Shown in pieces: positions 21,650 through 57,296 of a stretch of DNA of 64,000 nt. The stretch covers positions 1,615,042-1,679,041 of the forward strand of contig JAPNXP010000010.1 of assembly GCA_028753945.1 (NCBI GenBank), read 5' to 3'. Below the pieces are notes generated by a model that saw nothing but the letters and a program-made list of their open reading frames with translations, had not been told where the DNA came from and searched no databases. Both the position numbers and the translations under genes were made by a program. This DNA comes from Hexactinellida sp. DTS-2022. Lineage: Eukaryota > Porifera > Hexactinellida. Positions within the stretch are counted from its first letter, which is position 1. Every line of letters begins with the position of its first letter.

Positions 21650-23176
21650 AATAGAAAGAAGCTTTTCGGATTGATACTTCAGCCGACCACGATCTATTAA
21701 CTGGTGGAGCTTAAACTCCACTGGAAAGTCAAGATCGAATAGAAACAGTTTATCAAATGTCATGGTATCAAGGCAGACATGACAAGGTTGTTGATGTTTA
21801 AGGTAATTGTGAACAGCATAACCTGCGATAAAGTCTAAAGATGAAGAATTTCTGTACTACATTCTATGGATGATATATCGCTTTTATCTTCAAGGATAAT
21901 AAAACCTGTTTCGAAATTGTTTGGACGAATGTCTGAATGGATAAGGAATATTCCGATTGCTGAGAAAAATATTAAAGACATTGGATAGCTTCATACGACG
22001 TTTTGTTTCTAGAATTTTTTGATAAGGTATATGGTAATTCGACCCCGACATCATACGATATTATCCAAAATTATGTTCAAGCGGATCTGTTTGCAAAAAG
22101 TATAATAGAACGTATGAAAATCCTTTAATTTTGAATTAAATGGTTAGTTATTTCTTGTAGTCAATGATGGCTTGCTTAACACTAGAAAATGTTTGTTTAC
22201 TCAAATTTTCCTAGTTTCACACGTAATGCTTCCCAAGCATCTAACCAAAATGCTATACGAGTCTTGTAGAATAATCTTTCATCATTAAGGGTCAAAGGCT
22301 ATCGTTTGAACGGATACCCATAAATGGTATATGAATGTTGTATATTTCCATAATAAAAGCAGGATACAAATGAAATCATATGTATTCTTACGATATTCTG
22401 TTAATCGAGATTCATTTATAATTCTTAGAGCATCATATCTAAGATCTTAGAGATCTTAGATATGATATTCAAAACAATTGTTAATACACTTAGAGGATAT
22501 TTCGAATATAATTGATTCAATCTCTTGGATACCATTTATTGAGTTAGCAGTAATTGATAATTTTGTCCATTGCAAAGCAATTGCGGATAGAAAACAATTT
22601 ATTTCAAGATAGAGGTCAACTGATATATTCCGTTCTATCAGACTGGGGATAATATATGTGGTAAGATTATCACGATACAATGGTATCCAATTTTTTGGTA
22701 AAGAAATGAGAGTCAACTAATCTTTTAGATCCTATAGAGTATTGATCTTGTACTTAAATCTTTCCTCTGTCACAGTAATCAAATTCATCAGTATGGTTAT
22801 TCAGCAATTTCACTTCTTTTGAGTCATATTACAAGCGAGTCCGCTTCGTTTTAGATGTTGTTGAATAATAAGATGGACATCCAGGCAGTAAACATGTAAC
22901 ACGCCTTCTTTCAACTTAGGCTTGGCACTGTTACTTCTGTGAACATTCTGTCTACTTTGGGTACTTTATGTGTCGGTTCTATGTTTATCTTCTTCCCTAA
23001 AATGTTTAATACACACTCGCACTACCTTCATGTCATCAATATCATCATGACGTAGAGCCCGGATCCAAGCTTGTTTTAGTTCAGGTGGATTTGTTGGCAT
23101 TTTGTATACGGGAACTCGGTCTTCTGACTCGTAGTAGTTACTCTTGCAGCCTGGAGCCGAACAACTGTTCGGCATC
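21650..23176 (-). pseudogene. P-element/THAP transposase remnant, copy 2
   Basis: From an ATG at 23,176 on the minus strand the THAP finger is nearly intact (NSCSAPGCKSNYYESEDRV, YKMPTNPPELKQAWIRALR, KVVRVCIKHFREED), with all four C2CH ligands and the conserved P and W. A short open stretch follows at 22,456-22,716. The insertion-domain region at 22,200-22,300 matches 61,150-61,250 of copy 3, and the C-terminal region is at 21,660-21,850. So the order of parts is that of a full-length P-like transposase, but stops and frameshifts break it throughout. A perfect palindrome at 22,432-22,466 lies inside. Confidence 0.75.
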
Positions 23177-23720
23177 TTGAACGTAAGAATTAGTTTCTTA
23201 TAGTTAGGAACCCAAAAGACTAATAATAGTGGATTTCGAACACATCCATTGTCGAAGATTATTAAGTTGAGATTAGGCGTTTTAAAACGCAGGTCGAACT
23301 TCAGCATAGATTCGAACACACATACTTGATCACAGCAGATGCTTGACCTGAAACTTCTCATATTTCTTCCCACGAAGATGATTTTTCAATGGCAGCTGTT
23401 TCTGGGCTTATATGGGGACGTGCGCTTTCGTTATCATGCTGTGTCTAAATTCCCCGTGATAGCTTCCTTCGCCTCTATTTCTTTATTACATCTCTCAAAT
23501 TTTCTTTCGTGACTCAAACTTGTCCGAGCCAGGCCCAAAATTTGCCTGCATACCAAAATAAGACCTGTCGGTATTTTAGTTTCTTCAATAAATTCTTTAG
23601 ATAAAATTTGTTCCACAAGTGGCACATTGCAGGAATATGCTGACCACTTTGGAAATGTAGACAAAGATGGCCCAAACATTTAGTATAACAACATATTGAC
23701 AAGCTATTATCAAAAACTTG
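23177..23720. other. Flank of the THAP remnant
   Basis: Open minus-strand frames at 23,177-23,373 and 23,434-23,735 show no recognised domain. They may be 5' sequence of the P-like element or chance. Confidence 0.3.
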
Positions 23721-32938: not shown

Positions 32939-33672
32939 ACTTTCTACTGGGTTACACTATTAGGATTTATTTATTTGTTTAATGAATTTGGTGACTGGAA
33001 AGTATCGAATGTGGGTAACGAGTGTAATGAAATATATGTGAAATGTAATAATACAAAATTGCACAGATTTAATGGCGCTAAGTGGGTCTCGTGTAGATAC
33101 CAAATATAATCAAGTATAACAGAGCCCACAGCAGCCTGAGACATAAACTGATCAGATTAATGATTATAAGGAGTAATTATAAAAGCTTAATTTTTCCATC
33201 CATTGAGTCAATGTCTAAATGAAAGCTTGGATGGGCTAATAGTATTGTCACTAAACTCATGAAGTTTATTGATTTTACCTTTGCCATCAGAATCAGATAT
33301 ATTTTGGACATACTCTCTCTTTGCAGGGGAGCAATTGCCTCAGGCGAATGTGTCATTGTCAATTGAGAACTTTGAAATGTTTCATTCGTTAGAGAACATA
33401 TTTCATCTATGTCATCTATGGGTTCAATATGAGAATAAGATTTAAAAACTTCCCTATAGACTACATTTATATTCCAAACTTCCCCAGATTTTGATTTGTC
33501 AGTTCCACATACCATGATTTTTAGCCCTAATGGATTTTTGACTCTACTCAATGCAACATAGAGTTGGCCATGGCTAAAAATGGCTTCGGGGGATGGCAGA
33601 TATAGATCAACGGTATCCAACTCTGACCTTGCCCTTTGTTAATTGTGATACAATATATAGGCGGATTGGAAA

Positions 33673-34126
33673 TAGAGCCGAGCGATAAGACACGAACACG
33701 AATTCGTGTTCGTGTCGTGTTCGTGTTCAAAGTTCATGTCTCGTGTCGTGTTCATGTCGTGGTGGGCAAAGATTTTCGTGTTCGTGTTGTTGTCGTTTTC
33801 AAGGTTCATGTATCGTGTCGTGGTGGGCAAATATTTTCGTGTTCGTGTTGTTTTCGTGTTCAAGGTTTATGTATCGTGTCGTGTTCGTATCGTGTTCGGT
33901 TAAAGTTTCATGGGGATTTATTATTAATATTATACAATACTTGTGGTGAACAAGTTATTGTATAATATTCTTATGCTATGATCTTAATTAATTATATTTA
34001 TTCATTAAATTTTTCCAATTTGTATTTCGTGTTTATGTTTGTGTTTCGTGTTCGTGTCGTGTTCGTGTCACATGTTTCGTGTTCGTGTTGGTCTTAAAGA
34101 AAAATTGTACACGACGCTCACCTCTA
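33673..34126. mobile_element. hAT-type MITE built from CACGAA/TTCGTG repeats
   Basis: Perfect 8-bp duplication ATTGGAAA (33,665-33,672, 34,127-34,134). Ends TAGAGCCGAGCG and CGCTCACCTCTA. The inside is mostly TTCGTGTTCGTGTCGTGTTC-like repeats. It splits the Helitron helicase gene at the codons for QFP. Reading frames overlapping it are artefacts of the repeat. Confidence 0.93.
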
Positions 34127-36867
34127 ATTGGAAACTGCCTCCTGCTGAGAATAAAGGGAAGTTCAGACTCAGACGAAGTAAAGATAATTCGTGGTATAAA
34201 CACTCGCTTATGTTTGTTTGTACCAGTTGCGATCTCCGCTTCATTTACTCTTTTTGAGAATGCACTAATAATAAACCGAGTACCATTACCATACCCTCAT
34301 CTGGATCAAGGTTACACAATAGAATTACGGTCGCAAACAATTTCAAGAATAGCCGATAAGGAGGCATACGGTTAAGGAGTGATGGAATTGAAAGACTCAT
34401 TTGGAAAATTAATTGCATCAGAACATTCTACAGAATCTGCGCTCAACAGAGTTATACCGTCACCAGGAAGCTGATGAATTACTTATCGTCTATTATACGT
34501 ATCAGCTGTATTATTTTTGGAACACAGAATAATTTTTTGCCTTACATAATCACGATCAATATAATTTACATTTATATCACCATAGACTGAAGTAACCAAG
34601 TCTGCAATGGAATCACCTTATAGTACTACAAATTTGTTATCTATGTGAATCATTTGATTGACATCCTCAGGTTCAGTGCCTTTTCCTACTTTTAATAAAA
34701 AGTTGGAAAAGTTACTCACCTCGAGGGCATCTTGTGACAATAATGTTTGGAGTCGCATATTTTTAGTTAACTTCGTTACTTTAACATAATGCCAGAGATC
34801 TGACCTGTTCAGACAGGAAGAGACCACTTCAGCTGTCGACCCATACTTAACTACATGGGTATTTGACGGAAGTCGCCTCCAAAAACCATTACTTTGCCAC
34901 CAAAGGGGAGATCACAGGAATATATATGATATGCCTAAACTGCGATCAACACACTCAGCTACATGCTTATTTGACATGCACGCTTCATCTCATACCAAAG
35001 GTTTTATACGCTTAATTAGCTGTGCTAAAGCACTCTGTTTCGAAATGTTAGATAAAGATAAATCATTGATTTCAATGGGAACTTTCAACCTAGAGTGGAC
35101 AGTACGCCCCTGAGAGGAGGAGAGCTGCTATGCTACTAGCGAACTTGAGCCAAAAGTGTATTATAAAAGAATGTATTCCCTGTGCCCCCAGGACCAATGG
35201 TGCGGTTGGTTAACCGATCTGAGGCTACGCTTACAATTCGATTTCTTGTCACGGTTAACCAGTTAACCTCCCATCCTACTCAATACAATAAATCCTTTAT
35301 TAAAATGTCATTATACTACAGAATAAGGCTCAACTGTATAAAGTATAACCGCATAAGTATATCTACTGATATTTTTCGTGCTTTTGGCAAATTTAAACCA
35401 ATGTTGTCTATGAAAATGTATTAGGTGGTGATGAGAAATGGATTTAGGACTACCTATTCTGATAAAATTCCAAAAGGTTTAATACTTTATACATTAATTT
35501 CCCAATAACTCTGCTGATAATCAACAGACTGGCTAACTGGTTAATAAAATCTCTAACCGTTTACAGAATCCAGCCTTGCCGGGACCATCTACAAATAATA
35601 TTTTGGGATACTTATCAAAATCATTTACCGCTGCTATTATAGAGGTAAACACACTAAGCTGATCAAGGTTAAGAGAAGGAACATCATGAGCAACTATTGA
35701 TAGCTGCTCATCAACGTTATAATCTAGTTCTCTCTGAATAATAAGAGCCTCCTCGTATGGACTTCTGGTGTGAATGGGTATTGGCATCCCAGAGAAATCG
35801 GCTAGAGATTTACCCTGGTTTTGCAAACGCTTATCAATATCCACTAATACAGTATTAAGTATGTGCTCATCAACCTCAATATCGGGCACAGATTTTCTAG
35901 CAAATGCAGAAAGTCATCAGAAAAAGCAAATTTATACTTTTCCCAAAGTGCCGCAGGATTACATGGTTCGTTATAGAGTAGAATGATAACGAATACGTAT
36001 ATGACTTAATTGTGGAGGCATATGCCACGAAGCAGCCATAGCCAAACACAGATCATAATCGCTATCATCTTCCAGCAATCCGCGGTGGCATGCGGCCTCC
36101 TTAAAGTTACCACAGACAGTTTCGTAAGGTAGAGTACGAATAGCCTCAAAACTGGTACAGCCAGTGACGTGATTCAAAATAATTTTCAAGTAGAACCGCT
36201 CTCCCTAAGTTGGATGAACAGAAAACACTCGACCAACCATCGTACCGTGCCCCTTGACTCGCGGCTTCCATTCTCGCTTAGTTTTATCCCATACAAAATA
36301 TTCAGGAAATCTAACTAAGTGATTTCCCGAGCAGAATGAATTTTTTGCTTAGCTAGAAACCATCCTGTTAAAGTGGAATGATTTTTACACTTAACACACC
36401 CTCAATATCAGCGTCATCTCGAAAAACGACAGATTGCTGATTTTCGAGACGAAGAGCTAACCTCATCACACGTGGCAAATTAGCATGGAGATCGCAAGCA
36501 AATATTCTATAGCAAGCCTCACATGCAGATATACACCGAGCTTCTACATAATTGATACTTCGTCTACCTGCCGAGGTTTATCAATGTGATCACCCGATTG
36601 AAACTCGATAATGGCTCGATCATGGCCTATATTGACGTACTTATAGAGGTACTTTACTGCTCTAACTGTGCTGCAAATTTCAACGTTAATGTGAGCATTA
36701 TACTTTAACAAAAGGTATGGGTATATGGTAACGCAACGATTGCAAGATTCATGCCTGCAACCTCTACAGTACGGGAGTTATCTCTGCGCCGATACAATGG
36801 GTGACCATCCTTAATGGTTGTAGTACGTCATAAATTTATTTGGATATTGTTTAGAACATGAACCATT

Positions 36868-36938
36868 CAGTGGCGTAGCCAGGCCCGGGAAACTTCTCTC
36901 TGTGCCCGGGAAATCACTCGGGGCTGGATACGCCACTG
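36868..36938. mobile_element. 71-bp hAT-type MITE
   Basis: Ends CAGTGGCGTAGCCAGG and GGCTGGATACGCCACTG with the perfect 8-bp duplication GAACCATT (36,860-36,867, 36,939-36,946). It contains CCCGGGAAA twice. It is inserted in the Rep region of the Helitron. Confidence 0.92.
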
Positions 36939-38954
36939 GAACCATTGCGCATACAAAGAGCAGCCTTCTTTGTAGTACCACATGGACCATATAACATACA
37001 GCGCTTCACAATCTGATGCAATTTCGTGTTGAGATCAGGATCTGGAAGTTCAGCGCACACAATCTTATCGTAATCAGAATGGTCACGTGGTTTGCAATCA
37101 TCAGCTAAGATAACCAATATATGAGCATGCGGAAGACCACGCTTCTGAAATTCAATTGTGTAGACGTGTGCAACGGGTATACCAAGAACATTTTTCTTAG
37201 AAAGGTCATTTAGTAATTCCCTTAACTTTTGTTTAAAAATACTAACAATTAAATCGGGACGATCAGTAACCTTCTGGTTAGGCAAAAGACTTCACATTAT
37301 TTCGTCCCAAAGCGGATAACATGTAAATGTAATTAATAAATCCGGCTTAACAAATTTCCTCGCGTTGTCATTGCGCCCTGATAAAGTTCAGGGTAGAATA
37401 ATATTCCGTCCCAACTCAGTCGCATTAATGTGTCCTTTCTCAGCAGCATCAGCCAATCCACTATACAGATCAACTCGGATCTTCTGCGGATAAGTCTTAA
37501 TGTAGTTGAGCTTCTGCTGCTCAATTTTGGCGAACATGTCAACGATATCCTGGTGAATTAGCCTTCCTGAGAGGTGCAGGTGTTAGGCCCGCTACTGAGG
37601 ATCAGGCGATAGCTTTAGACCTCCAGTGCAGTAACATCGCCTCTACCTCGCTATGAGGGATATTAAGTTGCCAGCCATCATTTCCTATGGGAAACAGTAA
37701 GACATAATGCAGCGAGTCATACGCACAGTGGTTTCTGTGATCCTTCTGAGACCACCACTGATGGCATGCAGCACAATATCCCTCTTTGCCATTCCCCCAG
37801 AGTCACTCCACCAGGAAGCAGCACTGCAATTCAGGAGCAGAAGGAGCATTGTATCGGCGTGGGTCTGGGCAACCTCCAGCTCTGATGGTCAGCCTGATGT
37901 CCACTTCTCCTTGTGCTCTCATTTGATCAACTGCGTGTTTGAAGTGTGTGACATAGGGGTTAATCCCATTAGCATTTGCTGCAAGGCCTTTAACACAGGA
38001 AGTTTGGCCTCGCCTAGATGTCTCTGACAGTTTTCCACTTCAGCCTCTGCAGTACCGTCTTGGATGTAAATCTGGGAAAAGACTGGTGCCTCATCACTAT
38101 TTGTGACCCAACTTTCAATGTAATGGTGCACAACGTCCTGAATACGGAAGGTATATACACCACGTCTACCATTAGCAAGCTCTTTGTCGATATTTGCTCC
38201 GAGGGAACAAAATGCAATGCTTGAGTTATATGCTCTTATGTGGTTCCTGAAGTTTTTTTCTCTGCTATCAGCAGCTGTGAGCAGATGGCCTAACAACTCA
38301 GGAAGTTTATCTAAAGAGAGAAGAACAACCTTGCTCTCTCCGAAACATAGGGGAAACATTGACATGCTTTCGTACTGATGGAAAGCTTTCACTCTCCCAA
38401 AGTTGTTCACACATTGAACAACTATAGGACATACTACCTATTGAATGTTCATCAACCTAACCATCACTAACCTCAGAAGAGATTTGAGATCTATCAAAAT
38501 TCAGGACCTCTTAGATTGCAGGGTCTTATTCGTTGCATACAACAGAGTCCGGGACTTCAAACGAACAATTTACTTATTTTCAGACTCACTTTTTCTGAGG
38601 ACCCCCTGGTGTTTGCGCTTGTACTCCAAGCGATCAGATGATTGATCCTCAGACTCACTTTTTCTGAGGACCCATTGGCGTTCGCGCTGTCACTCCAATC
38701 GCATATCAGTCTCTGCGTCAGACTGCGCTTGTCTCCGAGAGGTTTGCCTCTCTCTTTGTTTCTCAAGACGACGAGCCCTTTCTCCAGGAATCTCATTATC
38801 ACGCAATGAGCGCTTTCGCCCAGCTTCCGATTTAAAAAGTTTACTATTTGGTTATTTTGTCCTAAAATCTGGACCACAGACCAACTTTTTTCCTAAAATC
38901 TGGACCAATTATTTGCCGGTATAATTTAAACTTCATCTAATATATTCTGTTATG

Positions 38955-42554: not shown

Positions 42555-45500
42555 GCTAGCATAGTCAGTGAGCAAACCTCAGATCCCCAGCCTAACTTGA
42601 TAGAATCTGATAATACAATTCTTCTTATCTTTGCCGAGGCTCAGTATATACTAGCTGAAGGCTGTGTCCAGCTGGTATTGAAAAATCAATTAATGCTATA
42701 TGAAATCCCCAATCTCCTGAACTTTAATCTTAGCGCTATGCACAAAGATGATCAAAGATGGATCAAATTCTGTTTTTGGATCAACAACCTAAGCGTTAGT
42801 GCATTTGCTGGATTTATTTCTTCTGGAAAATGGGCAACGGATTTAAATCAAAATTGGTTGGTTTGTAATTGTATTGCTTGTATTTGGAATTATATAAAAC
42901 ATTTAATTTTATTGAAAAAGGAATATAGTATCCTTCAACCTCTTCGTGATATTTATTTGATAGCTAACTCTAAGGCTCAGATTAAACCTCACCTAATGGT
43001 TTTCAAACTATCAATGGCTTTAGTGAATGCTTTAATCTACGAATCTCTCCATCGGTTAACTATTGTAGCAACACCTCCAGTAACTCCATTTAAAAAGCAA
43101 TCTTCAAGGAATGAACGTGATAGAAAGAAAGTTTGTGTCGGTACTCCGTCAATTACACCGGAAACAAATTTGAATCCGGACAGTATCCAGCTTTTGGAAG
43201 AAGCTAATATGATATGTAATAAAAACTTCTCACTACTGAGTCACTCTGTTTCAGACATTAATAGCTTTCAATTTTTAGTACCTATCTGGGTTAAAATTCA
43301 ACAGCGACTTAATCAACCAATTTACTTGGATAAATTCTGTGAACGTTTCATCAATTGTAAGGAAATTAATCTTTTGAGAGCAACTGTAATAATTGAAGTA
43401 TTATTAGCAACCAATTCAAATCTCAGCGATTCTGAGATAACGCTATTTTCTGCATTCGAAAACCTTACTAATTCTGTTAATGAATTTGGCATGATCACAC
43501 TTGAATTATGGTCTAAATTAGCCCAATTATCTCTCAATGCTGAACAACATGACAAGGTGACTTCCTGTGTGGAAAATGGGCGTATAAATGGTAAAGAAAT
43601 CCTCAAACAAAATCTTAATTTTTACTCAAAGAATAAAGTTTATATACTTCTTTCAAAATTCGAATCAATTTTGGCCTTAAGTTGGTATAAATCCTGCTTA
43701 CATACTACTTCTAATGTGTTATTAGATCAAATCATCACTGCTTGTGGATATGCAGACAAAGCAAAAAATATAAAATTTGTCTTATATAATCTAAAACTTT
43801 TCTGGAATTTTTGCAAACCAATGCCAAACAAATCAAATTTAAATTGTTTTCTAATTGAAAAGGCACACATTATATTTTCAATAGTATCCAATTATCCCAA
43901 GGTAGATCGCACTCTCGTTCATGCTAACAATGATATAGACATTAAGACTCAAATATTAACTCTCTTTTTAGATGCTTTTTCTGCACAGCATAGTTGGGAT
44001 AGAGGTCTACACTTTTTAGAATTGGCATTAACACAAGTTCCCAGAGACAAATATTCCTATTTTGTTAAATATATAATCTTATTTAAATCCAAACAGGACA
44101 TTAATGTAATATTAGATATTGTTAAATTTAGCGAGGAAATAGGACAACTTGAACAGTCTAACCTTTATTTGTTGGCAGCTAACGCTTCAACTGATCGCCA
44201 GAATAAATTTGATTGTTACCAAGGAGCAATTAATTCTTTAAATGATAAAGAAAATGTTCTCCAGAAAATTAGTATCAAGGTTGAATTCTTTCGGTGGTTG
44301 GTGATGATCAAGTTTTCTTATAAATTGTTAGTTACTTTATTGGAAGAAGTATTGGGTGAACTTGTCGAATATATTGTAGAGAGGTTGGCTTGTCAGAGAA
44401 GTGGATGTGCGATTATGGAGAATAAGGAACAGTCTGTGCTTACAGAATCATATGATTCAGGAATTGGTAATACTTTTTCCTTAGATCTTTTAGATCATTT
44501 TGAAGAATGGTCATTGAATGAAATTGACTTCTTTTTTCAAATTTTGATGTTGATATTTATTTCATATGGGAAGTCATTTTATCAGAAATATGAGTTATAC
44601 TTGAAATTATTGATTTTTTGTACTTATAGTATGTTAAAATTGGCACTTAAGAATACCGAAGTTAAGATTACTATACATGATCAGGGTAAAAAAGGAAAAC
44701 ATTTAACTAAACCAAAAATTGATGAAAATACTCTTAATATCACTTCTTTACCAAATGATTATTTTGGGTGGTCAAAATATTTTCCATCCCATAATAATTT
44801 ATCACTCTCTACTAACGATCAGTCTACTTTACTTGAATATTCTTTAAAATTTCCTAATTTGACACTATATTATCTTAACCATCTTAGTAAAGTATTGAAA
44901 TTTTCTACATTTTCACACTTCCAATTGTTTCCCCTCGTACTTATGAATGCTATATCACTAGCTTGTGATAATTGTCCCAGCGGATGGTCAAAATTATCTT
45001 TTATAGGTTTACTTGATTGTGCCAAACGTTTCAACTTTGAGTCATTTGAATTTTGGAAAAGTAAATTGGATGGTAATTATTTTGCACAGGAAGATCTGAG
45101 TTTTTTATTGGAAACTACATTAACTGATTTAGAACAATGTATAAGTCCCTCGACGTCAATTAGATCAAATACTTCCTCTTTATTTATTCAAAATGATGGA
45201 CACTTGATTACTTTTCATAAGAGACATTTCATTATATTTATCGCTTTAGAAATTTCAAGCTTATTGCTAGAATTAAAAGATCTGCAACCTACTATTGATG
45301 TTGTTAATGAATGTGAGATTTTTTTGAATGTTTTTCCTAGTATTATCTTTGATTTTCAAATATATGACTTGAAGGCCCGAATCAATGCCGTCTATTTTGG
45401 ATCAATTGTCTATAAAGAAAATCTTGTTATAGTGCAAAATTCATTATTTTCAATTAGTGAATTTCTTGGATATAATTTGTCATTGAGTAAACTCTTGGAC

Positions 45501-47936
45501 TATACTTCAGCGATACAATATTTAGAGAATGCTATACATTTAATACGAAAGTTTCAAGAAGAAAATGCTTCATGTTATTATAATCATATTCAAGTATGTT
45601 TCGAAATTGAGTTGGCAACCCGTCAGCTTAACTATTATTTATCTCATTCATCCCAAGATTCAAATGTAAAGCGACAGATTATTGATGTTGATATTTCGAT
45701 GGAATTGCTCTATAGTTGTTATTGTTTACAAAATGCTTCGCATAATTATATCGATTCAAATTATGCCCTGAAGAAATACGTTTATTTTCTAGATCAATTC
45801 GCAATAAGTAACGGTTGTTTGTTTTTTCATACATCCCATTTTACATCTGTGAATAAAATTTTAAGTTGCTACAAAAGAATAATTGACATCAACAAAGAGA
45901 TTATTGTATATATTGTTTCGTTATCTTTAGAATTTGGTATTAAATTGGATAAAGATACTTCCATTCATTCAGAGCTAGTTGACTCTCACCTATCCTTAGC
46001 AACCTTTTGTATATCTGTATTTCAATTCTGTTCTGAATTAATTAATTCCGAGAAGTTTCAAGTTCATATGTATTCACAGTCTGAAAAATATGTGAAAACA
46101 GAACCCCTCTCCTCTAATATATTTGAACGATTTAATTTCAGTCTAATTATTTGTTCAATTACGACTTTAGTTTATTTGCAAAGTATATCTTCTTGCCATT
46201 TAATTGAATATGAACTTGGTAGGGCTATGATATCACTTTATTATTATTATTATTATGACCAAGATATGTTTGAACACGGGCCTTATACTATTATTGATAC
46301 TAATCAGTTATTGTTAAAATCGCATATTACAAAGTTGCAATACGACGATATTCAATATTCTCATTCTAGATCACTCCTTTACTTCGCATCAGGTATTACA
46401 TATTTTCAAAAATATTTACTTAAATACATGAAAAGTACTATCTCTTATCTGCTGACATTGAAAGAAATTAGCTATCGCTTTTTAACACTTATTGGATATT
46501 ATGATCGGAAACAGAGTGCCCTTTACTTAGCTCTCTATCAGAGTTTTTCATGTTCTTCATACTTTGAGTCAATTATTTCGAAATTATTAGATAATCATTC
46601 TGTTTCAAAGTTGGCAGCTTTTAATTCAATTGGCAACAATATTTCCTTACAATCAGTTTATCCTAGGTTAAATGTTCTACCTAATTTTTTCGAATTTACA
46701 AAAGAGATGCCATTAAACTTCCGATACCTTATATTACAACATTCTATAGATATGTCGACGTTATACTTCGCATATACTCAACAATCATCTTCCCAAAAGG
46801 CAAATAAAGGTGCAATTCCTCCTATTGATTGGCTACCAATTTATGGGCATTGTAGAGTAAATCCAAATACTATACAAGAAATAATTCTAATGCTGAACGA
46901 TACCACTGAACTAACTAGGATGTATGATTCTAAGAAAATTTTATATAGTGTCAAAAATGAACAAATTTCTTCTCATGCCGAAAACATATTTCAAGACATA
47001 ACGGCTGCAATTCATGCATATTTCAATTGTATAATTCCTTTGATTGAACCTATCATTTATAGTGAAACTAATCCACAAAACTTAATACTTTTCATTCTTT
47101 GTGATGAAAATATTCTTTCTCTGCCAATTGAAGTTCTATTTAATCTTCCACCTTTAAATATATTTGGCCAGATTTCAAGAGATTTTTCACTCCAGATTTT
47201 AAACCATCGTTTTAAGAGTATACAATATCAAAATAAAGAAACTCTTAAAGATAAATCAAAAGAATCTGTTCCTCCAGTCAATAGTGAACTTGATCATGAT
47301 GTTTTTGATATCACAAACACTCGTTATTATATAGATCCTTATGATTCCTTTCTTTCACCCTCAAATGTAAATGAAGAATGTCAAACAATGCTGAGGAAAT
47401 CATTTGCTCTTCATCAAAAATTAACTAATAAATGGAACGGTATTTTGGGAACGACTAACTTTCAAAGTCTTTATGAAAAATGGAATGTATTTAAAGCAGA
47501 TAATATATTCTTCTTCTTACCTGGATTATTTAATTTTCACTACCCCCTTGATTTACTTATTTCCACATCTTATTCCAAACGATACAACCTCGTACTACTT
47601 TTTGATAAAATATTTGATGAATATACAAATTATGGCATATTCAATGATTATTTGCCCACAAAAATACAATCTGATACAGTTATTGCAGGATTACTTAGCA
47701 TTATTGGTTGTAATGTTGTTGTTATGAATATGAGGCCTGTGAATAGTTATTTGCTTACCAACATCTTGACTTGTTTCTTCAATTGCTTGTTAAAAGAAGG
47801 CTATCCTGTTTCGAGAGCTATCCAATATGTAAACAATCGACAATTCTCAACTGAAGAACAAGCTGATGCAGGAAATTCGACTCACATGGCCTCTAGTTTC
47901 ATAGCATATGGATTAAGCTATTCACATACACTGTAA
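42555..47936 (+). CDS. CFAP46: CFAP46 terminal exon, 1,793 codons
   Basis: CFAP46 is a C1-side component of the ciliary central pair that scaffolds its partners and contributes to beat regulation. This exon opens after acceptor TTTATTGTAG in phase 0 and runs 5.38 kb to TAA with no stop or intron. Landmarks: LIFAEAQYILAEG near its start matches the conserved 'EARFI.AEA' block, and a largely helical TPR-like solenoid fills most of the length. The C-terminal module has LSLPIEVLFNLPPLN (about residue 1,520 of the exon), QISRDFSLQIL, YYIDPYDSF, KWNGILGT and a final SSFIAYGLSYSH, matching the vertebrate C terminus ('LPLEAL', 'ISRDFSLQ', 'F.VDPYEEA', 'RW.G.LG', 'F.Y..YGL'). With the upstream exons about 2,100 residues are visible, so the full protein would be roughly 2,400-2,500, somewhat shorter than the roughly 2,700 of vertebrates. 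Vertebrate CFAP46 has dozens of exons; here two thirds of the protein is in one. Confidence 0.93.
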   Translation, partial: ASIVSEQTSDPQPNLIESDNTILLIFAEAQYILAEGCVQLVLKNQLMLYEIPNLLNFNLSAMHKDDQRWIKFCFWINNLSVSAFAGFISSGKWATDLNQNWLVCNCIACIWNYIKHLILLKKEYSILQPLRDIYLIANSKAQIKPHLMVFKLSMALVNALIYESLHRLTIVATPPVTPFKKQSSRNERDRKKVCVGTPSITPETNLNPDSIQLLEEANMICNKNFSLLSHSVSDINSFQFLVPIWVKIQQRLNQPIYLDKFCERFINCKEINLLRATVIIEVLLATNSNLSDSEITLFSAFENLTNSVNEFGMITLELWSKLAQLSLNAEQHDKVTSCVENGRINGKEILKQNLNFYSKNKVYILLSKFESILALSWYKSCLHTTSNVLLDQIITACGYADKAKNIKFVLYNLKLFWNFCKPMPNKSNLNCFLIEKAHIIFSIVSNYPKVDRTLVHANNDIDIKTQILTLFLDAFSAQHSWDRGLHFLELALTQVPRDKYSYFVKYIILFKSKQDINVILDIVKFSEEIGQLEQSNLYLLAANASTDRQNKFDCYQGAINSLNDKENVLQKISIKVEFFRWLVMIKFSYKLLVTLLEEVLGELVEYIVERLACQRSGCAIMENKEQSVLTESYDSGIGNTFSLDLLDHFEEWSLNEIDFFFQILMLIFISYGKSFYQKYELYLKLLIFCTYSMLKLALKNTEVKITIHDQGKKGKHLTKPKIDENTLNITSLPNDYFGWSKYFPSHNNLSLSTNDQSTLLEYSLKFPNLTLYYLNHLSKVLKFSTFSHFQLFPLVLMNAISLACDNCPSGWSKLSFIGLLDCAKRFNFESFEFWKSKLDGNYFAQEDLSFLLETTLTDLEQCISPSTSIRSNTSSLFIQNDGHLITFHKRHFIIFIALEISSLLLELKDLQPTIDVVNECEIFLNVFPSIIFDFQIYDLKARINAVYFGSIVYKENLVIVQNSLFSISEFLGYNLSLSKLLDYTSAIQYLENAIHLIRKFQEENASCYYNHIQVCFEIELATRQLNYYLSHSSQDSNVKRQIIDVDISMELLYSCYCLQNASHNYIDSNYALKKYVYFLDQFAISNGCLFFHTSHFTSVNKILSCYKRIIDINKEIIVYIVSLSLEFGIKLDKDTSIHSELVDSHLSLATFCISVFQFCSELINSEKFQVHMYSQSEKYVKTEPLSSNIFERFNFSLIICSITTLVYLQSISSCHLIEYELGRAMISLYYYYYYDQDMFEHGPYTIIDTNQLLLKSHITKLQYDDIQYSHSRSLLYFASGITYFQKYLLKYMKSTISYLLTLKEISYRFLTLIGYYDRKQSALYLALYQSFSCSSYFESIISKLLDNHSVSKLAAFNSIGNNISLQSVYPRLNVLPNFFEFTKEMPLNFRYLILQHSIDMSTLYFAYTQQSSSQKANKGAIPPIDWLPIYGHCRVNPNTIQEIILMLNDTTELTRMYDSKKILYSVKNEQISSHAENIFQDITAAIHAYFNCIIPLIEPIIYSETNPQNLILFILCDENILSLPIEVLFNLPPLNIFGQISRDFSLQILNHRFKSIQYQNKETLKDKSKESVPPVNSELDHDVFDITNTRYYIDPYDSFLSPSNVNEECQTMLRKSFALHQKLTNKWNGILGTTNFQSLYEKWNVFKADNIFFFLPGLFNFHYPLDLLISTSYSKRYNLVLLFDKIFDEYTNYGIFNDYLPTKIQSDTVIAGLLSIIGCNVVVMNMRPVNSYLLTNILTCFFNCLLKEGYPVSRAIQYVNNRQFSTEEQADAGNSTHMASSFIAYGLSYSHTL

Positions 47937-48722: not shown

Positions 48723-49243
48723 CAGGCTTGTCAAAAGGTCAGGTCATGACCTGACCTGACCTGACCTTTGAGTGACCTGAACCTATTTTCTGAATGCCTT
48801 GACCTGACCTGACCTGACTTGAACCTAATCTTGCATGATTTTGACCTGACCTGACCTGACCTGAACTGAACTTTTTTGACCTAAATTGACCTGAAATTCA
48901 GGGATTTTCATTTGATTGACTCGATGACTCGCGAGTTACCACGAGTCATCGAGTCAGACTCGAATCACTGAATTTTGTCACGAGTCAGATTTCTCGGTGA
49001 CGCGAGTCAGTTGACTCGGTGACTCATGAAAGCCCTGCTGAATTGACCTGAAATTGACCTGATATTACCTGAAATTGACCTGAAATGACCTGAATTGACC
49101 TGAGAATGTGAAAGACCTGACCTGACCTGACCTGTATGAATATTTTTCCACCAAGAACTGACCTGACCTGACCTGACCGTAAATATTGTATATAAGACCT
49201 GACCTGACCTGACCTGACAATGCGGGACCTTTTGACAAGCCTG
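48723..49243. mobile_element. hAT-type MITE built from GACCT repeats
   Basis: Perfect duplication TCTAGAAT (48,715-48,722, 49,244-49,251). Ends CAGGCTTGTCAAAAGGTC and GACCTTTTGACAAGCCTG are exact inverses. The interior is dominated by GACCTGACCTGACCTGACC runs. Another MITE (48,899-49,037) is nested in it. Confidence 0.94.
48899..49037. mobile_element. Nested MITE built from GACTCG repeats
   Basis: Ends CAGGGATTTTCATTTGA and GACTCATGAAAGCCCTG. The interior is GACTCGATGACTCGCGAG, CGAGTCATCGAGTC and similar. Flanks CTGAAATT and CTGAATTG are close but not identical, partly because the host is itself repetitive. Confidence 0.78.
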
Positions 49244-49505
49244 TCTAGAATACTTTACTTTGATCTAATCAGTCTGAAAATGGTCAAATTTGTAGATCTA
49301 ATACTGTTGATTATAGACATTAATTTATAGAACTATTGCTTTCATAGTTCCCTAGAAATCTTGGTCACGCTTTGATATCGATAGTATTACCGAGATAGGA
49401 AGCCTTAAACGATGTTATTCAAAATTATTCCGAAAATAGAACAAAGGAAGTTATGCAGTGGTGATTACATGCTCAGTTATGTAATTACAGTCTAGTATAG
49501 AGAGC

Positions 49506-49643
49506 TGTTGTGTGGTATTTTGAGACGCCTATATGATACACTCTATACACCATGGATGTGCTATTACAAAATTTTAGACTGTGGTATTTTGAGACGCTGT
49601 CGTATTCTGAGTCGCAACTATATAAGGTAAATTATATTAGTCT
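49506..49643 (+). repeat. Left terminal inverted repeat of the Ginger element
   Basis: It contains the word GTGGTATTTTGAGACG twice (outermost, and again at about 49,580) plus CATGGATGTGCTATTACAAA. It is close to identical to the inverse of the right end. Confidence 0.93.
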
Positions 49644-49750
49644 CCTTGTCTACAACTATCACAACACAATCAATCAATCAATCAATCAAACAAACAAACA
49701 AACTAATCAAACCAAACCAAATAATCAATCATTTCTATTCTGATTTTCAA

Positions 49751-52700
49751 ATGAATTCAGAAGAGTATCAAGAAATTATTCAGTTTCTTCGCGAACAAAA
49801 ATATCCGGAGACAGTACAAGTCTCACGGCAAACAAATGGAATTACAAAAGAAAACTGTACTCCTATTTCATTGCAGAATCCGACACACTATTCAAGGTGA
49901 GATTTTTTTTTTAACCCCAAAAATGACTCGCTATACTAATAGATAATCCCATTATTTATATATTAATTAAAAATACAGTAGATCCTCTTTAACAGCCACT
50001 GTATAACGGTTACTTGTCTATAACGGCCATTTTTCCGTTCTTTCCTGGTCCTTATTACTTAGCAGGTTCTACTATATTTGATTTAATAGTTTTAATAAAT
50101 CTTGTCCTTAGAGAGTTAAACTGGGAGGTACAGAAACAGATTTGGAAGTTCCATTGAAGTCTCTGCTGGATGATATTTATCAAAGGTTCCATGACCAAGT
50201 TGGTCATCCAGGGATTCACGCCACTCTTCATTCAGTTCAGCAAAGATACACATGGACAGGCATGCACATTGACGTTCGAGATTATGTTAGTTAATATGAT
50301 AATGAAATTTATTTGAACAATTTCTATTTGATGTCTTTCGAATAAAATTGCTTAATTAATAAGGGTAACTTATCTACTCAAAATAGGAAAAAGTAGTTAC
50401 TTTTCAAATTATAGCCAACTGGATCATCCTTGTCCTCATTTTGCAACTTCAACCAATCTAATCTTTGACTTCTGCACGAAAGATTTGCCTATTTCCTAAC
50501 GATTATCCCTTAACCTACTATTAGTTCGATTTATTTTCAATTAAAATCAATTTGCAATGTTATGTAGATATATTCATTTGATTTATTTTACAATTATTGG
50601 GTAAATTGCATTGCAATTATCAATTCAGTACTTTACATACTAGAATCACGGAATCAGACATACCAATTTCTATTCCCAACTAAATTCTGCTAGTACGTAC
50701 TCTAGAAAATTGTCAGCAGAACTCCGTTAGTGTTTTGATTGTCTTAGTACGTGACAACCAAAATACTTTTATATTATCGTTGAGTATGTTTGAAGACTTG
50801 TATACCCTTTATATCTTGTTTACACAATTCAACAAGTCAGCATTTCGACCTGTGGATTATGCATACGGATAAGACATGCCTTCGGTTAGTACGTACTTTG
50901 TCTTGTTTCCCAAGGCTGGTACGCCTTAATCGAGTTCTATTATATTTCTATTCTAATTGATGTACGTACATCCCAAAATAGCATTAGAATGCAGTGTTAG
51001 TGGAACATTTGAGTTGAATCATCCATGTGCTGTAATCGTAATTATTAAGTTTAGATTGTCTAATTAATAAAGCATTTTATTTTGACGACTAATAGCAACT
51101 AACATGATTTCGCAAGATCCCAAATTGTTTTTATATTTTATTTTTATAATGTTCAGTTAACTTTAATCAACCATTTACGAATTTTATATAATGGTGTAAT
51201 TAGATATCGATGCTGTAACTAATACAAAAATTATTAAAAAATGCCATATTATAATGACTTTCTTGTATACTAAAGGTAAGGACTTGCCATACATGTCAGA
51301 TGACAGCGGCCTTGCCACCACAACCGCAAAAGAAGCTCCAACCAATCCCACCTCCGTCTAAAACGTGGAAACATATAGGGATGGACCTTATATGTGATTT
51401 CTCTGAGAGCAAAGATGGATATAAACACATTTTAGTCACTGTTTGCTATCTGAGCAAATACGTTGCAGTGCGCGCTCTCAAGTCGAAGACATCAGAAGAA
51501 GTAATCCAGAATCTTAAGGATATCTACCTCGATATGGGATTACACGATATTATTCAACACGACCAAGGAAGGGAGTTTACAAGTAATGTGAGTTGCATAA
51601 TAATTTTTCTACATTCTAATCAAATATTTTCAGTGACATATTGCTAAATATTTCCTTTTAATAATATTAGTACGTATTCGATAGTAATTTTGCTTGTATT
51701 ATTCATAGATATTTCAGGAATTTCACCGGAAATTAGGAGTTGAAAATCGTAGCACTCGTGCATACCACCCGATGGCTAACGGTTTAGTCGAAGCACACAA
51801 TAAGATTCTCAAAAGGTATTGTTATTAGTTAACTAGTAAATGATAACAACATTTCGAATGCATGATTTAGGATAATATACTAACTATGAAAGTTCTTTTT
51901 TAGTAAACTGAACAAAATGGAGATCCAGACTGGGGATCATTGGACAAATCTTCTAAAAGCTGCTGCAATAACAATGAATTCTACCTTTAAAAGGTCCCAT
52001 GGACAAACTCCATTCAAGGTTATGTGGGGAAGAGAGTCCAGGCATCAAGATCTTCTATCGACCATTAACAACCTGCAGTGCAACACTGAAGAAGATTTTG
52101 CAATAGATGATGCTATTATGAGCGAATTCATTCCTCAACTCGATGATATTGAAGAAATATCAGACATCTTTTCTCCACCACTTGACATTCCCCAAGAAGA
52201 AGTTACTAGTATTGATGAATCTCGTACTTCTACACAGCAATCAGCAATGGATAGTATCAACTTTGAGCAAATAAAACAGAAGATGCAGTATGATAAGAAG
52301 GTCAACGAAGGACGGTTAGTTGAGCTTTATATATTCAACAATGTTTTCTTACTCACATTTTATTATCATTATGACATCTGTAGTGCCTCTCTGAAGATGG
52401 ATGATAAGGTCATATACATTAACATGCCAAAGATAAAACACTTACCCAAAACGAAGAAGCAATCGAAATATATTGGGCCTTACACGATGTCGAAAGTGAC
52501 AGATAGTCATGTTACTATTTCTCAGACAGAATTAGGAGCCAAAAAAGACAAGAAAATTCCAATCCATATCACACGTCCTTATTTTGTAAGAAACACTAAG
52601 AAGAAAGTAAACCTCGATTCGAGCATAGGTGTCGACACATCACAGGTACTATTGATCAATTCATACATAATTAGAAATTAGTGTCAATTTCATTGAAAAC

Positions 52701-54035
52701 ATTCAATTTTAGACTTGCCTGAATCTCTATGGATTTACAGCAGTATCTATATTTACACATCTAACTACTTTCAAAGTAAGGATTCCATTCTCTTTACATT
52801 CCTGAATTATTGTTGAGAAGTCATTGTTTTATTTTATAATTCACTTCTCCAATTGATGTCAATTTCAGTTATCTCATAAACTTCCAGGCAATAATGATTA
52901 CTTCATCATTTTTTGAATTTCTAGGAAATTCTAAAACAGAATATTCTCCAAGGAACATTCGCGACTCCTTTACATGAGAAATTGTACAGAAGCTTAAACA
53001 AACAACACATCTATACTCCCAACACCTATTTATTTCAGTTTTTGAATGGTGAAAAAGAAGATAAAATTGTAAGTCTAGCCGAGTATAAATTAGTAAATTT
53101 TTGATTAGTAAAACACAACTTATATCCATTGAATCTATATATCTGTAGAAGAGAGACATAATTGAGACTGTAATGGAATGGACACCAGATCTTTATCCTA
53201 GTTTTACAGATAATGAGCGTGCTAGACATACACACAAAATACTGTATTTCGTGGTGAGTATTCTACACAATATTAATTGAGATACCTTATATGGATGCTC
53301 TAATTAATTGTGTAATTTTATTATACTTAATGATTCCTATATACCTTTATTAGGAGATGGAGTATCTCAATACTATGCTATGGGACACGTTCGACGAAAA
53401 AGATCAAACCGTTATTACAGATGCCTATCCGGATGACCCAAAAATTAACGTTATAGATGAGAATTGGCAGCGTAGTAAATGTGTTCTCTTGGGGATAACA
53501 TTTGATTCAGTTAGCAAGCAACCATCGGATCTCGTTCGACAGCCACTAAGCAAATACGAACCTTGAGCTGACAGAGAAAATCAAAGGAGATTGTAATTGT
53601 CTCTTCAGATGTCTCTCCAAAATAATTACTGGGAGTGAAAACAGCCACCTACAGCTTCGTTCCATTATATGCCGATTTATAGCCAGTGAAGGGACAACAA
53701 AACTTGGATGGTATTCTAAATCAAAGCAAACAACACCGTGTCATTACCTCACACACGAAAACGCTATCTATCGTGAATCCATTTGGGGAAGTGATGTTGA
53801 AATTATTGCTGCTTCTGCTATTCTGAATGCTGATATCTACGTTGCTAACAACGATTATAGAATGCCAGAGTCTGTAATTCGTCATGTGCGTTGGAGCTTG
53901 CTCAGATCTACTAACAGCCCAACTGCCAATCTTTACATCAAAAATTTCGTCCTACATTATGAACCTGTTGTATCAATGCTGAAATCTCCTATCCCGACGT
54001 ATGGAACTACAACAGATGAAGTCCTAACAGTGTAA
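49751..54035 (+). CDS. Ginger transposase: HHCC zinc finger, DD35E integrase core, GPY/F-like, OTU protease
   Basis: Predicted exons: 49,751-49,896; 50,112-50,285; 51,276-51,587; 51,719-51,815; 51,904-52,314; 52,384-52,645; 52,713-52,775 (less sure); 52,925-53,068; 53,149-53,253; 53,354-54,035. All junctions are GT-AG and mostly in phase. Exon 2 plus 3 give the zinc finger (FHDQVGHPGIHATLH, then VRTCHTCQ). The catalytic acids are D in HIGMDLICDF, D in HDQGREF and E in NGLVEAHNK, with 35 residues between the last two (split by an intron). A GPY/F-like module follows (KYIGPYTMSKV). The last exon encodes an OTU cysteine protease (GDCNCLFRCLS, WGSDVEIIAASA, VLHYEPV) with Cys and His in place. Oddities: one frame slip in exon 1 (after VQVS) and one before the OTU domain (about 53,560) suggest a recently inactivated copy or sequence errors, and GDCNC replaces the usual GDGNC. 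Confidence 0.82.
49976..50074. mobile_element. 99-bp TA-flanked MITE inside intron 1
   Basis: Left CAGTAGATCCTCTTTAACAG, right GCAGGTTCTACTA. TA on both sides. TATAACGG occurs twice inside. pogo-like. Confidence 0.7.
50632..50943 (-). mobile_element. MITE of the GTACGTACTAACCGA family, copy inside intron 2
   Basis: In reverse complement it aligns with 63,517-63,917: TAGAACTCGATTAAG, AGTACGTACTAACCGAAGG, CTTATCCGTATGCATAATCC. Its left boundary is degenerate. It explains most of the 990-bp intron. Confidence 0.78.
53560..54035 (+). CDS. OTU cysteine protease domain of the Ginger transposase
   Basis: This is the C-terminal part of the gene above, in a frame shifted relative to 53,354-53,566. 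The order GD-x-NCLF, then H..LR..I, then WG...E...A......I.V, then HY..V is the OTU deubiquitinase fold. OTU domains have been reported in Ginger1 transposases. Its role in transposition is not known; protecting the transposase from ubiquitin-dependent turnover is a guess. Confidence 0.78.
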
Positions 54036-54740
54036 TAACAACTCACAACACTCTTTCGAAAGCGCTCAAAGACAAGGTAAATCGAACTTTGTGGGGACCT
54101 CTGCTCGAGGTTATTCAGGCAACGCAATCCCTATCATGGTGAGCCCAGATAATGGAAACGTGACCTGCAACGGCACATCCCCAGTGGCGAGAGACGAGCT
54201 GTTATCTACGAGGTAAATAATTTATGACAACAACTAGGTAAGTGATATCATATCACCTATGGAATCAAGTGAGTTTTAAACTTATTTTTTTAGTTGAAGT
54301 TAATATTGTTTGCGTTTTTTTCTTTTAAGTTTTAGTTACATTGGAAACCGCCTCGCATTCTTAGGGTTCTTCATAATACTTGGAACTAGATCAACAAAAA
54401 TTTCCAAAGCCAATTCTTCCGTTTATCCAGTTTCATAAACATATAGCGAACTCTCGATTAAATTATAATAGGAAATTAGAACAATTTACAAACAAACTGG
54501 TTTTTAATTAAAAAGAAATAGAATAATTAATTTACTAATACTACACTAGGTACAGCAGCTAGAAACGATATTAATTAATATTTGTTATATAGCGCTGTCG
54601 TATGCCATAAGAAAGAGTATCTAATTCAGTACATATGTCTGACTATAATTTGGTTGTTGTTGTGGAATACTGAGATAATAACTAGCCAAAATTTCCATTT
54701 CTTTCAGTTAGCTAAGTTAAAACTTTCGTTGTGTTATCAT
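54036..54740. other. Ginger interior between transposase and hairpin cluster
   Basis: AT-rich, no coding exon seen beyond a few short open stretches. It may contain the 3' UTR of the transposase, but no AATAAA stands out close to the stop. Confidence 0.4.
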
Positions 54741-54970
54741 AGTTTTTATTAAACCTTCTGTTTAATAAAAACCCTCAGTCTCATGTAATGGGTAAATTGT
54801 CCTGAGCCTAGGTCCCGCTAATGGTGTCAAGAGATAAGTTCGGTGTTCTCAGGTAAGCTCTTGACATCCCTCAACCGTTAGGCTCGCGGTTGGGGAAAGG
54901 TACAGAGTGTGTTCCAAGTACACTCACAGCGAAACTACTCTTTAGTAGCTAGCTGCAGCCCTGAGGGACC
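54741..54970. other. Multi-hairpin segment, possible structured RNA
   Basis: GTTTTTATTAAAC / GTTTAATAAAAAC is a perfect 13-bp hairpin at 54,741-54,771. Then GGTCCC (54,811-54,816) pairs with GGGACC (54,965-54,970), enclosing four hairpins in a row. These are GGTGTCAAGAG/CTCTTGACATC (54,823-54,868, 11 bp with one wobble), CCTCAACCG/CGGTTGGGG (54,869-54,895), GAGTGT/ACACTC (54,905-54,925) and CTACT/AGTAG (54,935-54,948). The segment is visibly richer in G+C than its surroundings. It could be a nested SINE-like element, a structured RNA or cis element of Ginger, or chance. It does not match tRNA, 5S, U1-U6, 7SL, hammerhead or HDV motifs that I can recall. Confidence 0.55.
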
Positions 54971-55461
54971 AACCTACTATTTATTAATTAATTAACACTA
55001 CTTCACAGCATAATCAATTATCTTTCCATATAGCTTACTAACAGGCAGTTATCAAGACATTTTATCTTATTACTCTGCGAGAAGAATCGAGCCTGAACAT
55101 TGTACAAGCCAGAACAAGTAGTTCCCGTCCTGAATTTGTGTATTTTGATGGATTAGTTTATATCCTTTACACGTTAGTTATGTGGTATATTTATTACATC
55201 TTTCTGAAACTGTTACTCTGATATTTCCCATTAAATTTATTAATAAAAGATAACAATGCATAATAGTGGCTAATATTAATAACAGGGTGATAAAAGTAAA
55301 TTTTTAATATAAATTGCTTTTAGTTAGACAGAATTTTTATAATCAAAAATATAATCAGGGAGTAATAAGGTATGTATTGTAGCCAAACAAAGTGGAGAAA
55401 TAAGATAATAAACTAGTAGTTAGATAAATTAGATACCGTGTTACTTAGGAAGCATTTTAAG

Positions 55462-55632
55462 CTTCCACAATGTGTGCACTTGGCCCAAATTACACAAGTT
55501 TCATAAACTTCCAGAATGTGTGCACATGGCCCAAATTACACAAGTTTCATAAACTTCCAGAATGTGTGCACATGGCCAAAATTACACAAGTTTTATAAGC
55601 TTTCACAATGTGTGCACTTGGCCCAAATTACG
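55462..55632 (+). repeat. 46-bp tandem repeat, 3.7 copies
   Basis: Units begin at 55,462, 55,508, 55,554 and 55,600 and contain AATGTGTGCAC.TGGCCCAAA and TTACACAAGTTT. It lies immediately upstream of the TATA box of the coiled-coil cassette, so an enhancer or binding-site array is plausible. Confidence 0.9.
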
Positions 55633-55685
55633 TTTTTAAATGTTTCATGACTCAGTTTTGTGCTACAATGATTTACAACTTACAA

Positions 55686-55693
55686 CTATAAAT
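55686..55693 (+). promoter_or_regulatory. TATA box of the coiled-coil cassette
   Basis: TATAAATA, about 40 bp upstream of the ATG at 55,729. It suggests transcription starts near 55,715, so the earlier ATG at 55,699 is probably not used. Confidence 0.55.
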
Positions 55694-55728
55694 ACCACAT
55701 GAAATATGCAAAAGTAATTACAGCTATA

Positions 55729-55956
55729 ATGGATTCTTCAGAAAGATACTATATTGAATTCATTGAACAGATGCAAAAAGAAGACGAAGAAAAAAAAATG
55801 AGCATGATGGAAGAGACATGCAAAATGATTGATGCGCATAAAGCGTATCTAGATATGAAAAGGGCGGAATGGGAAATCGAAAAAAAGCATTTGAAAAAAA
55901 AAATCAGAAAATTAAAACAAACGATAATACGCATGGGGGATATAGATTCAGATTAA
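55729..55956 (+). CDS. Small coiled-coil protein of the Ginger element
   Basis: 75 codons from the ATG at 55,729 (85 if the ATG at 55,699 were used). The protein is highly charged and almost wholly helical: EEKKMSMMEETCKMIDAHKA, then a Lys/Arg-rich EKKHLKKKIRKLKQTI, and a short acidic tail GDIDSD. A poly(A) signal AATAAA lies at 56,032-56,037, so it looks like a separate transcription unit on the same strand as the transposase. I do not recognise a family. A basic coiled coil could be a DNA-binding or transposase partner, which is inference. A diverged related unit follows at 56,440-56,820. Confidence 0.6.
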   Translation: MDSSERYYIEFIEQMQKEDEEKKMSMMEETCKMIDAHKAYLDMKRAEWEIEKKHLKKKIRKLKQTIIRMGDIDSD

Positions 55957-56031
55957 GTGTAGAATTATTTAATTAGAAGCAGAGTATTAGATTTTAGTTT
56001 GTAATGTGTTTTTTGTTAATTCATAAGATTA

Positions 56032-56037
56032 AATAAA
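56032..56037 (+). promoter_or_regulatory. Poly(A) signal of the coiled-coil cassette
   Basis: AATAAA about 75 bp after the stop codon of the small gene. Confidence 0.55.
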
Positions 56038-56439
56038 GTTGTGCTTTACTAGTATTTTAATTAATGGTATTTTTTAATTAATTAATCTATAAGGGAAAAT
56101 GCATATAGGTTGACTAGATCCTGTCTTTTTTAAGGCAAGTGGATTAGAGAGTTAAATCTTTCAATTATAAGAATTATAAATATGATATTTAGCCATAAAA
56201 TGCTTTAGATAGAAAAAAATTAAGATTTGCAAGATATCGAATTTAGTAATCGTTTGGGAACCAGTTCCTCATTCTTGTAATCGGAAGTGATAAATAACTA
56301 ACGCATATTCCATTTAAATACGGAATTTGATTCAAGAATATAAGCTATTAGTTCGAATTACATCAAATTTAATGATCAATGCACATGATATTCGTGATTA
56401 CTTCGTGAGTCTTTCTATTTGATCAAAGATGTATAAACT

Positions 56440-56820
56440 TAGAAACTATAAATAGGTTACAGTTTAGGAATTATTGAATTAGGATGGTTTCAATGATTTA
56501 TGTGCACGAGACGTTGACAAGAAATTCAGAATCAGCCGAAGAGCAGATCGAGCTGCCAAGATGCAGTCGAACAATTTTAACTAATTGATTCTTTTAATTA
56601 AGAGCAGAGGATCTCTGGAGAATGAGAGAAGAGTATGGCAGGATGAGAGAAATGCTTTGAAAATAAAAATTAGGGAGAAAAGTAGAAAACTGCGAAACAT
56701 GGAGACTTAGCTGGAGCCTGGAGGGTTCCGAGAAGTGTAGGGATATCATTGGAAACTAGAATAACTTGTATACTTTATTATTTAGATGTTTGTTGTGTCA
56801 ATTAATGAAATAAAGTTTAG
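56440..56820 (+). pseudogene. Second, diverged coiled-coil cassette
   Basis: It repeats the layout of the first cassette: TATAAATA at about 56,447, then broken frames ending in VWQDERNALKIKIREKSRKL and RNMET before a stop (about 56,629-56,710). This aligns with EWEIEKKHLKKKIRKLKQTI of the first gene. An AATAAA-like GAAATAAAG lies near 56,808. Stops upstream suggest it is dead or has an intron I cannot place. Confidence 0.45.
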
Positions 56821-57051
56821 TTGCTACTACGTATTAATTAATAAACACCTTCTTTAAATAAAGCAAGTGGATTACAATTAATCTGTAAAGTGGAAAATTC
56901 TTTTCACTACCAGCGCCTCGAAATACCACAGTAGATTGGAAAAGCAAATCCAGAATTCACTAGTTATACTAAGTCTCAAATTCACAATTTAATTAATAAA
57001 TAAATAATTAAGTATAACATTAAATGTTCAGTAAACTTATAGTTAGAGTGG

Positions 57052-57196
57052 ATAAAATTTGCCTTGTATAGTTGCGACTCAGAATACGACAGCGTCTCAA
57101 AATACCAGTCTAATTTGTAATAGCACATCCATGGTGTATAGAGTGTATCATATAGGCGTCTCAAAATACCACAGCGTCTCAAAATACCACACAACA
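57052..57196 (-). repeat. Right terminal inverted repeat of the Ginger element
   Basis: Inverse of the left end, plus a tandem duplication of about 17 bp of the outermost CGTCTCAAAATACCAC word. A stray CGCCTCGAAATACCACAG at about 56,915 lies inside the element. Confidence 0.92.
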
Positions 57197-57296
57197 GAGC
57201 TTCAATGCAATATTCAAAATATTGTGGAAACCACCCATATCGATAATACATTCTTGTCGGCAAGCATCCTTAAGCCATATTCACCCACCATACACG

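Follow-up and report, generated by a model that had tools for sequence, protein, structure and literature searches.

The element, its ends and its target site

Within the window, as we call the whole 64,000-nucleotide stretch of DNA analysed here, a transposable element of 7,691 bp occupies positions 49506-57196. Its ends are inverted, GAGC stands on both sides (49502-49505 and 57197-57200) and its first bases, TGTTG, fit the TGTNR consensus; the limits, duplication and terminus proposed in a sequence-only reading of this DNA are thus borne out. The terminal inverted repeats, put at about 140 bp in that reading, align over about 132 bp on the left (49506-49637, forward strand) and 145 bp on the right (57052-57196, reverse strand). 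Over their full length they differ by one additional 18-bp unit on the right and by a few short gaps and changes; a 60-bp arm, at 49511-49570 on the left and 57114-57173 on the right, is the same at both ends. TGTGGTATTTTGAGACGC or close copies of it recur inside each end, on the left at 49511 and about 49580, which suggests several putative binding sites.

When the genome was searched with the outermost 23 bp on the left, allowing at most one mismatch, 84 ends were returned, against 0 for the reversed control; the same 84 ends were recovered when GNNC was also required. The terminus reads TGTTG in 83 of them and TATTG in one. As counted in this 23-bp search, without the best-100 pattern-ranked lists, C occupies position -1 in 84/84 ends and G position -4 in 81/84, while A is found at -5 in 77/84 (hand count, among the matches listed). 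The duplication takes the form GNNC in 81/84 ends and CCGG, CCGT or ACGG in none.

The combination of inverted repeat and duplication is not private to the window, since GNNC duplications match in 30 of the 31 elements whose ends pair within 20 kb. The single mismatching pair is GTCC and GCCC; by chance, the middle pair of GNNC would agree with a probability of ~0.13. The target is palindromic, AGNNCT, and its two central bases tend to be a purine followed by a pyrimidine. For one of the three ends that lack the G, flanked by AAAC, a partner end was sought and not found. Two deletion derivatives, L048 (1,758 bp) and L049 (381 bp), keep both ends and matching duplications.

A ten-exon gene for an integrase and an OTU protease

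Ten exons, all on the forward strand, were placed by eye from the open frames and checked on the nine best-scoring sibling copies. They are separated by nine GT-AG introns, whose splice dinucleotides are retained in 9/9 siblings, in agreement with the initial estimate of about ten exons. Seven of the nine siblings are open throughout and encode one protein of 801-802 aa; in the remaining two, L030 and L031, the frame is interrupted by the same shift within exon 7 (52713-52775).

Exon 1 (49751-49896) encodes a putative YPYY-like region; the pattern KYP...SYF...LF was read by eye before the zinc finger in the siblings, the window frame being broken there. The two His of the H2C2 finger lie in exon 2 (50112-50285; Pfam Integrase_H2C2, 1.4e-13 on the window frame), and its two Cys in exon 3 (51276-51587), together with the first two Asp of the DDE core (Pfam rve, 8.5e-6, below the curated cut-off). 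Exon 4 (51709-51815) supplies the Glu of DD35E. The three acidic residues, with 35 residues between the last two, are as first described, by a hand count on the translation. Exon 5 (51904-52314) encodes the C-terminal part of the integrase and exon 6 (52384-52645) a GPY motif, KYIGPYT, recognised by eye in the window and in the siblings. After exons 8 (52925-53068) and 9 (53149-53253), exon 10 (53354-54038) encodes an OTU cysteine protease, for which the downstream frame gives 4.5e-7 with Pfam OTU.

Among the window frames compared with Pfam, those of the H2C2 finger and the OTU domain pass their cut-offs and the lone rve exon does not. On the protein of one sibling, the profile check that had been suggested gives Integrase_H2C2 at 5.1e-18, rve at 2.1e-10 and OTU at 4.5e-9, all above the Pfam cut-offs. 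The call of a Ginger-type transposon that combines a DD35E integrase with OTU is upheld. NCBIfam offered a weak IS481 match alone, far under its cut-off. The closest solved structures in the PDB are the integrases of PFV (4.6e-23) and Ty3 (2.6e-19). Across ten copies, 83 of 2409 coding columns are variable, against 147 of 2221 non-coding columns.

We aligned 15 OTU sequences: that of sibling L041, that of the window and 13 relatives from the same genome, with L061 excluded as its frame ends early. Identity to L041 is 98% for the window and 32-65% for the relatives. The N-C and the C-terminal His are invariant in 15/15 rows, so that the Cys and His were rightly described as retained. The Asp of DGNC is present in 14/15 rows, with L062 as the exception; the Gly is likewise present in 14/15, and here the exception is the window, with DCNC. 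An AlphaFold model of the domain (mean pLDDT 74.9) gave 197 Foldseek matches in the PDB at E <= 10, three of them at E <= 0.001. All three of these best matches bear titles that name an OTU domain; their TM-scores, normalised on the query, are modest (0.38-0.41).

Measured against the related family at L047, as one sequence pair with no error bar, dN/dS comes to 0.28 in the OTU exon and is lower, 0.065, in exon 3 of the integrase, at the same dS of 0.84; pN/pS is 0.29 among six open siblings. The dN/dS of 0.28 thus indicates purifying selection on the OTU domain, less strict than on the integrase core. At least 150 OTU stretches were matched in the genome (the best 150 of 737 candidates, including L060-L072), some of them being pieces of one copy and many just 41-69% identical to the window OTU. 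They probably belong to other Ginger-like families; among these OTU relatives, linkage to an integrase was observed in L047 only.

Downstream of the gene lie a tandem repeat with a period of 46 bp (55458-55631) and a second open frame of 75 aa (55729-55956, forward strand), charged and perhaps coiled-coil. Of the 73 stretches that this frame matched in the genome, four run through it stop-free, starting at residue 1 or 2. At about 56540-56710, on the forward strand, lies an apparent second copy of it, decayed, as judged by eye. The 75-aa frame goes without mention for Ginger1 in the available portions of PMC2836005 and of the other Ginger literature examined. Ten other frames in the element (57-107 aa) and the frame at 54028-54216 showed no domain. 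Gag, reverse transcriptase and polymerase domains were detected neither in the sibling protein nor in 17 scanned frames that lie inside or overlap the element, out of 67 listed frames of at least 40 aa.

Insertion and decay of the window copy

The element interrupts a host repeat, whose left part lies at 49402-49501 (it may reach further left) and whose right part lies at 57201-57273. The window flanks were joined and searched against the genome, and the best 40 of 72 candidates were scored. Among these 40 rows, 15 span the junction with 90-96% identity and another 22 span it with 71-74%; the window flanks account for two others, and the last match ends before the junction. Five of the 15 related empty sites were read, and each holds the target once, as GAGC in three and as GAGT in two. 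The insertion was therefore into a pre-existing repeat and duplicated four bases (or two).

A search with the 4.5-kb coding query matched at least 52 stretches in the genome (the best 39 of 914 candidates were scored). Among the matches listed, 15, including the window, extend over the whole query, give or take one base, with 95-100% identity. The copy comparison comprises the window and its nine best siblings, leaving out five other full-span copies that are 95-96% identical to the window.

The window copy had been called complete, a description that does not survive this comparison: relative to 9/9 siblings, exon 1 has a one-base gap and exon 10 one extra base. In the window alone among the 15 aligned OTU rows, DGNC is changed to DCNC. 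The spliced frame is broken in exons 1 and 10, and splicing the ten window exons, as had been advised, does not give one open frame. Similarly, the HHCC residues of the finger are present as claimed, but the word 'intact' fails, with the window frame-shifted twice. We also rejected an intron that would explain the exon 10 shift: a small number of GT-AG pairs, inspected by eye, put the frame in the wrong phase or met a stop, and 9/9 siblings retain that frame without an intron. One sibling carries an additional, in-frame 3-base difference in exon 10.

The likeness of its ends had also been taken to mean that the copy is young. Following the proposal to search the genome with the end, we found 40 other end matches that are 90-98% identical to the window end; alike ends are therefore weak evidence of age. 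A young age is instead ruled out by private substitutions, of which the window has 40 against 5-25 in the nine other copies, and by its terminal branch, the longest of the ten copies (0.0124, the next being 0.0087). The window differs from all nine siblings by 1.7-2.3%. As the five left-out copies may have longer branches still, we limit the claim to the window copy not being among the youngest. Of the coding changes private to it, 5 lie at codon position 1, 7 at position 2 and 9 at position 3; in these small numbers there is no strong third-position excess. The smallest divergence between siblings is 0.38%, so the family itself has moved recently.

Affinity with Ginger1 and proposed mode of transposition

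The sequence-only reading held that few such elements are described, which is only partly true. The pairing of integrase and OTU has been known since 2010, when it was listed for 7/16 Ginger1 families (Table 1 of Bao et al. 2010, PMC2836005: Ginger1-1, -2, -3 and -11_HM; Ginger1-1_AC; Ginger1-1 and -2_AP); a C-terminal OTU or Ulp1 protease is present in 15/16 published Ginger1 families (PMC2836005). As far as the available text of that source goes, the present family shares with OTU-bearing Ginger1 the TGTNR ends, inverted repeats in the range of 40-270 bp, a 4-bp duplication, an integrase with H2C2, DDE and GPY followed by a C-terminal OTU domain, and a single protein of about 500-800 aa.

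The same source marks the differences (PMC2836005). The target is AGNNCT here and CCGG/CCGT in Ginger1, where 112 Hydra elements gave CCGG in 75% and CCGT/ACGG in 24%. The gene has nine introns, in contrast to 0-4 in Ginger1 and 1-4 in its seven OTU families. At 7.7 kb the element is just above the 2.6-7.1 kb of Ginger1, and it has the extra 75-aa frame. A GNNC target for Ginger1 is not described in the available portions of PMC2836005, PMC6431247, PMC10045372, PMC12440569, PMC9004415, PMC12863088 or PMC5753468; Repbase may already hold the family. Since most features of Ginger1 are found here and its stated target is not, we file the family as a Ginger1-like variant rather than a plain member, an assignment made on shared features. 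What sets it apart is the target, the intron number and the length, the integrase-OTU pairing itself being already known. The window very probably holds a Ginger1-like DNA transposon that has been inactivated and belongs to an autonomous family.

Other origins have to be set against this one. The finger and DD35E core can be aligned with the integrases of Gypsy/Ty3 and PFV, those with the nearest solved structures, and at least 150 rve matches occur in the genome (the best 150 of 706 candidates), as one would expect of a Gypsy LTR retrotransposon, or a remnant of one, in which the integrase alone had been recognised. Yet the ends are inverted, not direct, repeats with matching duplications in 30/31 pairs, which refutes such an origin; the 801-802 aa protein is the sole long product found. 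LTRs, gag and reverse transcriptase, named in the sequence-only reading as signs against a transposon, were not found, the sibling protein and the 17 of 67 frames scanned being clear of the latter two, and we consider a Gypsy element scarcely tenable. Related integrases are also carried by Polinton/Maverick and Ginger2/TDD elements (PMC2836005), and Ginger2/TDD further shares a Gypsy-like integrase, TGTNR ends and 4-bp duplications in animals. Its target in print is RTATAY (PMC2836005), however, against GNNC in the present family, while Polintons are credited with a 6-bp duplication (PMC10045372), not seen here, and a polymerase domain is absent from the scanned frames. The GPY motif and the OTU domain, both present here, are reported for Ginger1 (PMC2836005), and an assignment to Polinton or Ginger2 is very improbable.

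The many introns would suit a host gene exapted from Ginger1, as domesticated genes have them: Gin-1/Gin-2 and Imagin are also Ginger1-derived and multi-exon (PMC2836005, PMC12863088). Those are host genes, whereas the present family is a multi-copy mobile element; Imagin, for instance, is single-copy, without inverted repeats and with its DDE residues lost (PMC12863088). Here the catalytic residues are kept, and 15 full-span places occur among the matches listed, with ends, duplications and empty sites. Copy number, paired duplications and empty sites refute a host gene, which we regard as next to impossible. A narrower alternative concerns the duplication, which could be of 2 bp (NN) in an element ending in CTGTTG...CAACAG, given the C that adjoins the end in 84/84 cases and the G four bases out in 81/84. 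The palindromic GNNC target accounts for the same letters, though; 3 versus 0 exceptions is a small difference, and Ginger1 makes 4-bp duplications (PMC2836005, PMC10045372). We therefore think a 2-bp duplication unlikely.

For the Ginger1-like transposon, we propose that the integrase would bind the end motifs and free the element. Retroviral integrases join ends to target strands with a spacing of 4-6 bases; in the present family, the 3' ends would be joined to the two target strands four bases apart, and host repair would then produce the duplication. By analogy with the published family, this would be cut-and-paste rather than copy-out. The OTU part may act by stripping ubiquitin or a comparable tag off the transposase or a host factor, and could in this way protect the transposase or ease silencing. 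As the window copy has lost the full protein but kept both ends, it could in principle move in trans via an open sibling.

More tentatively, a distinct Ginger1 branch with an AGNNCT target and a ten-exon gene may have radiated in this one genome into many OTU-bearing families, with the OTU domain retained through selection as a working part of transposition; we find this possible, though less likely than not. If it is true, several open and very similar copies would offer a natural system for testing the role of a deubiquitinase in a transposon. The family extends the Ginger1 target range from the published CG-rich sites to AGNNCT. An OTU domain under purifying selection, with many relatives in the same genome, also provides material for asking why integrase-type transposases carry ubiquitin proteases. 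As the pairing is known, the window copy itself is no surprise.

Elsewhere in the window, an uninterrupted open frame (42555-47933, forward strand), situated upstream of the element, runs for 1793 codons and has no Pfam match at E 0.01. A Helitron-like N-terminal domain (Pfam, 1.7e-18) is encoded at 36917-37291 on the reverse strand and probably marks a Helitron remnant, judging by this match; three frames near it (33180-38437) gave no match above the cut-off. A THAP domain (Pfam, 4.1e-10) lies at 22969-23385, also on the reverse strand; the known distribution of this domain hints that the host is an animal. Near the left flank of the element, short direct repeats of the CTGACCTGA type occupy 49038-49216. 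The genome as a whole comprises 112.4 Mb in 18 contigs, of which C1 and C11 measure 17.6 and 15.6 Mb, against 2.6-6.6 Mb in 13 others.
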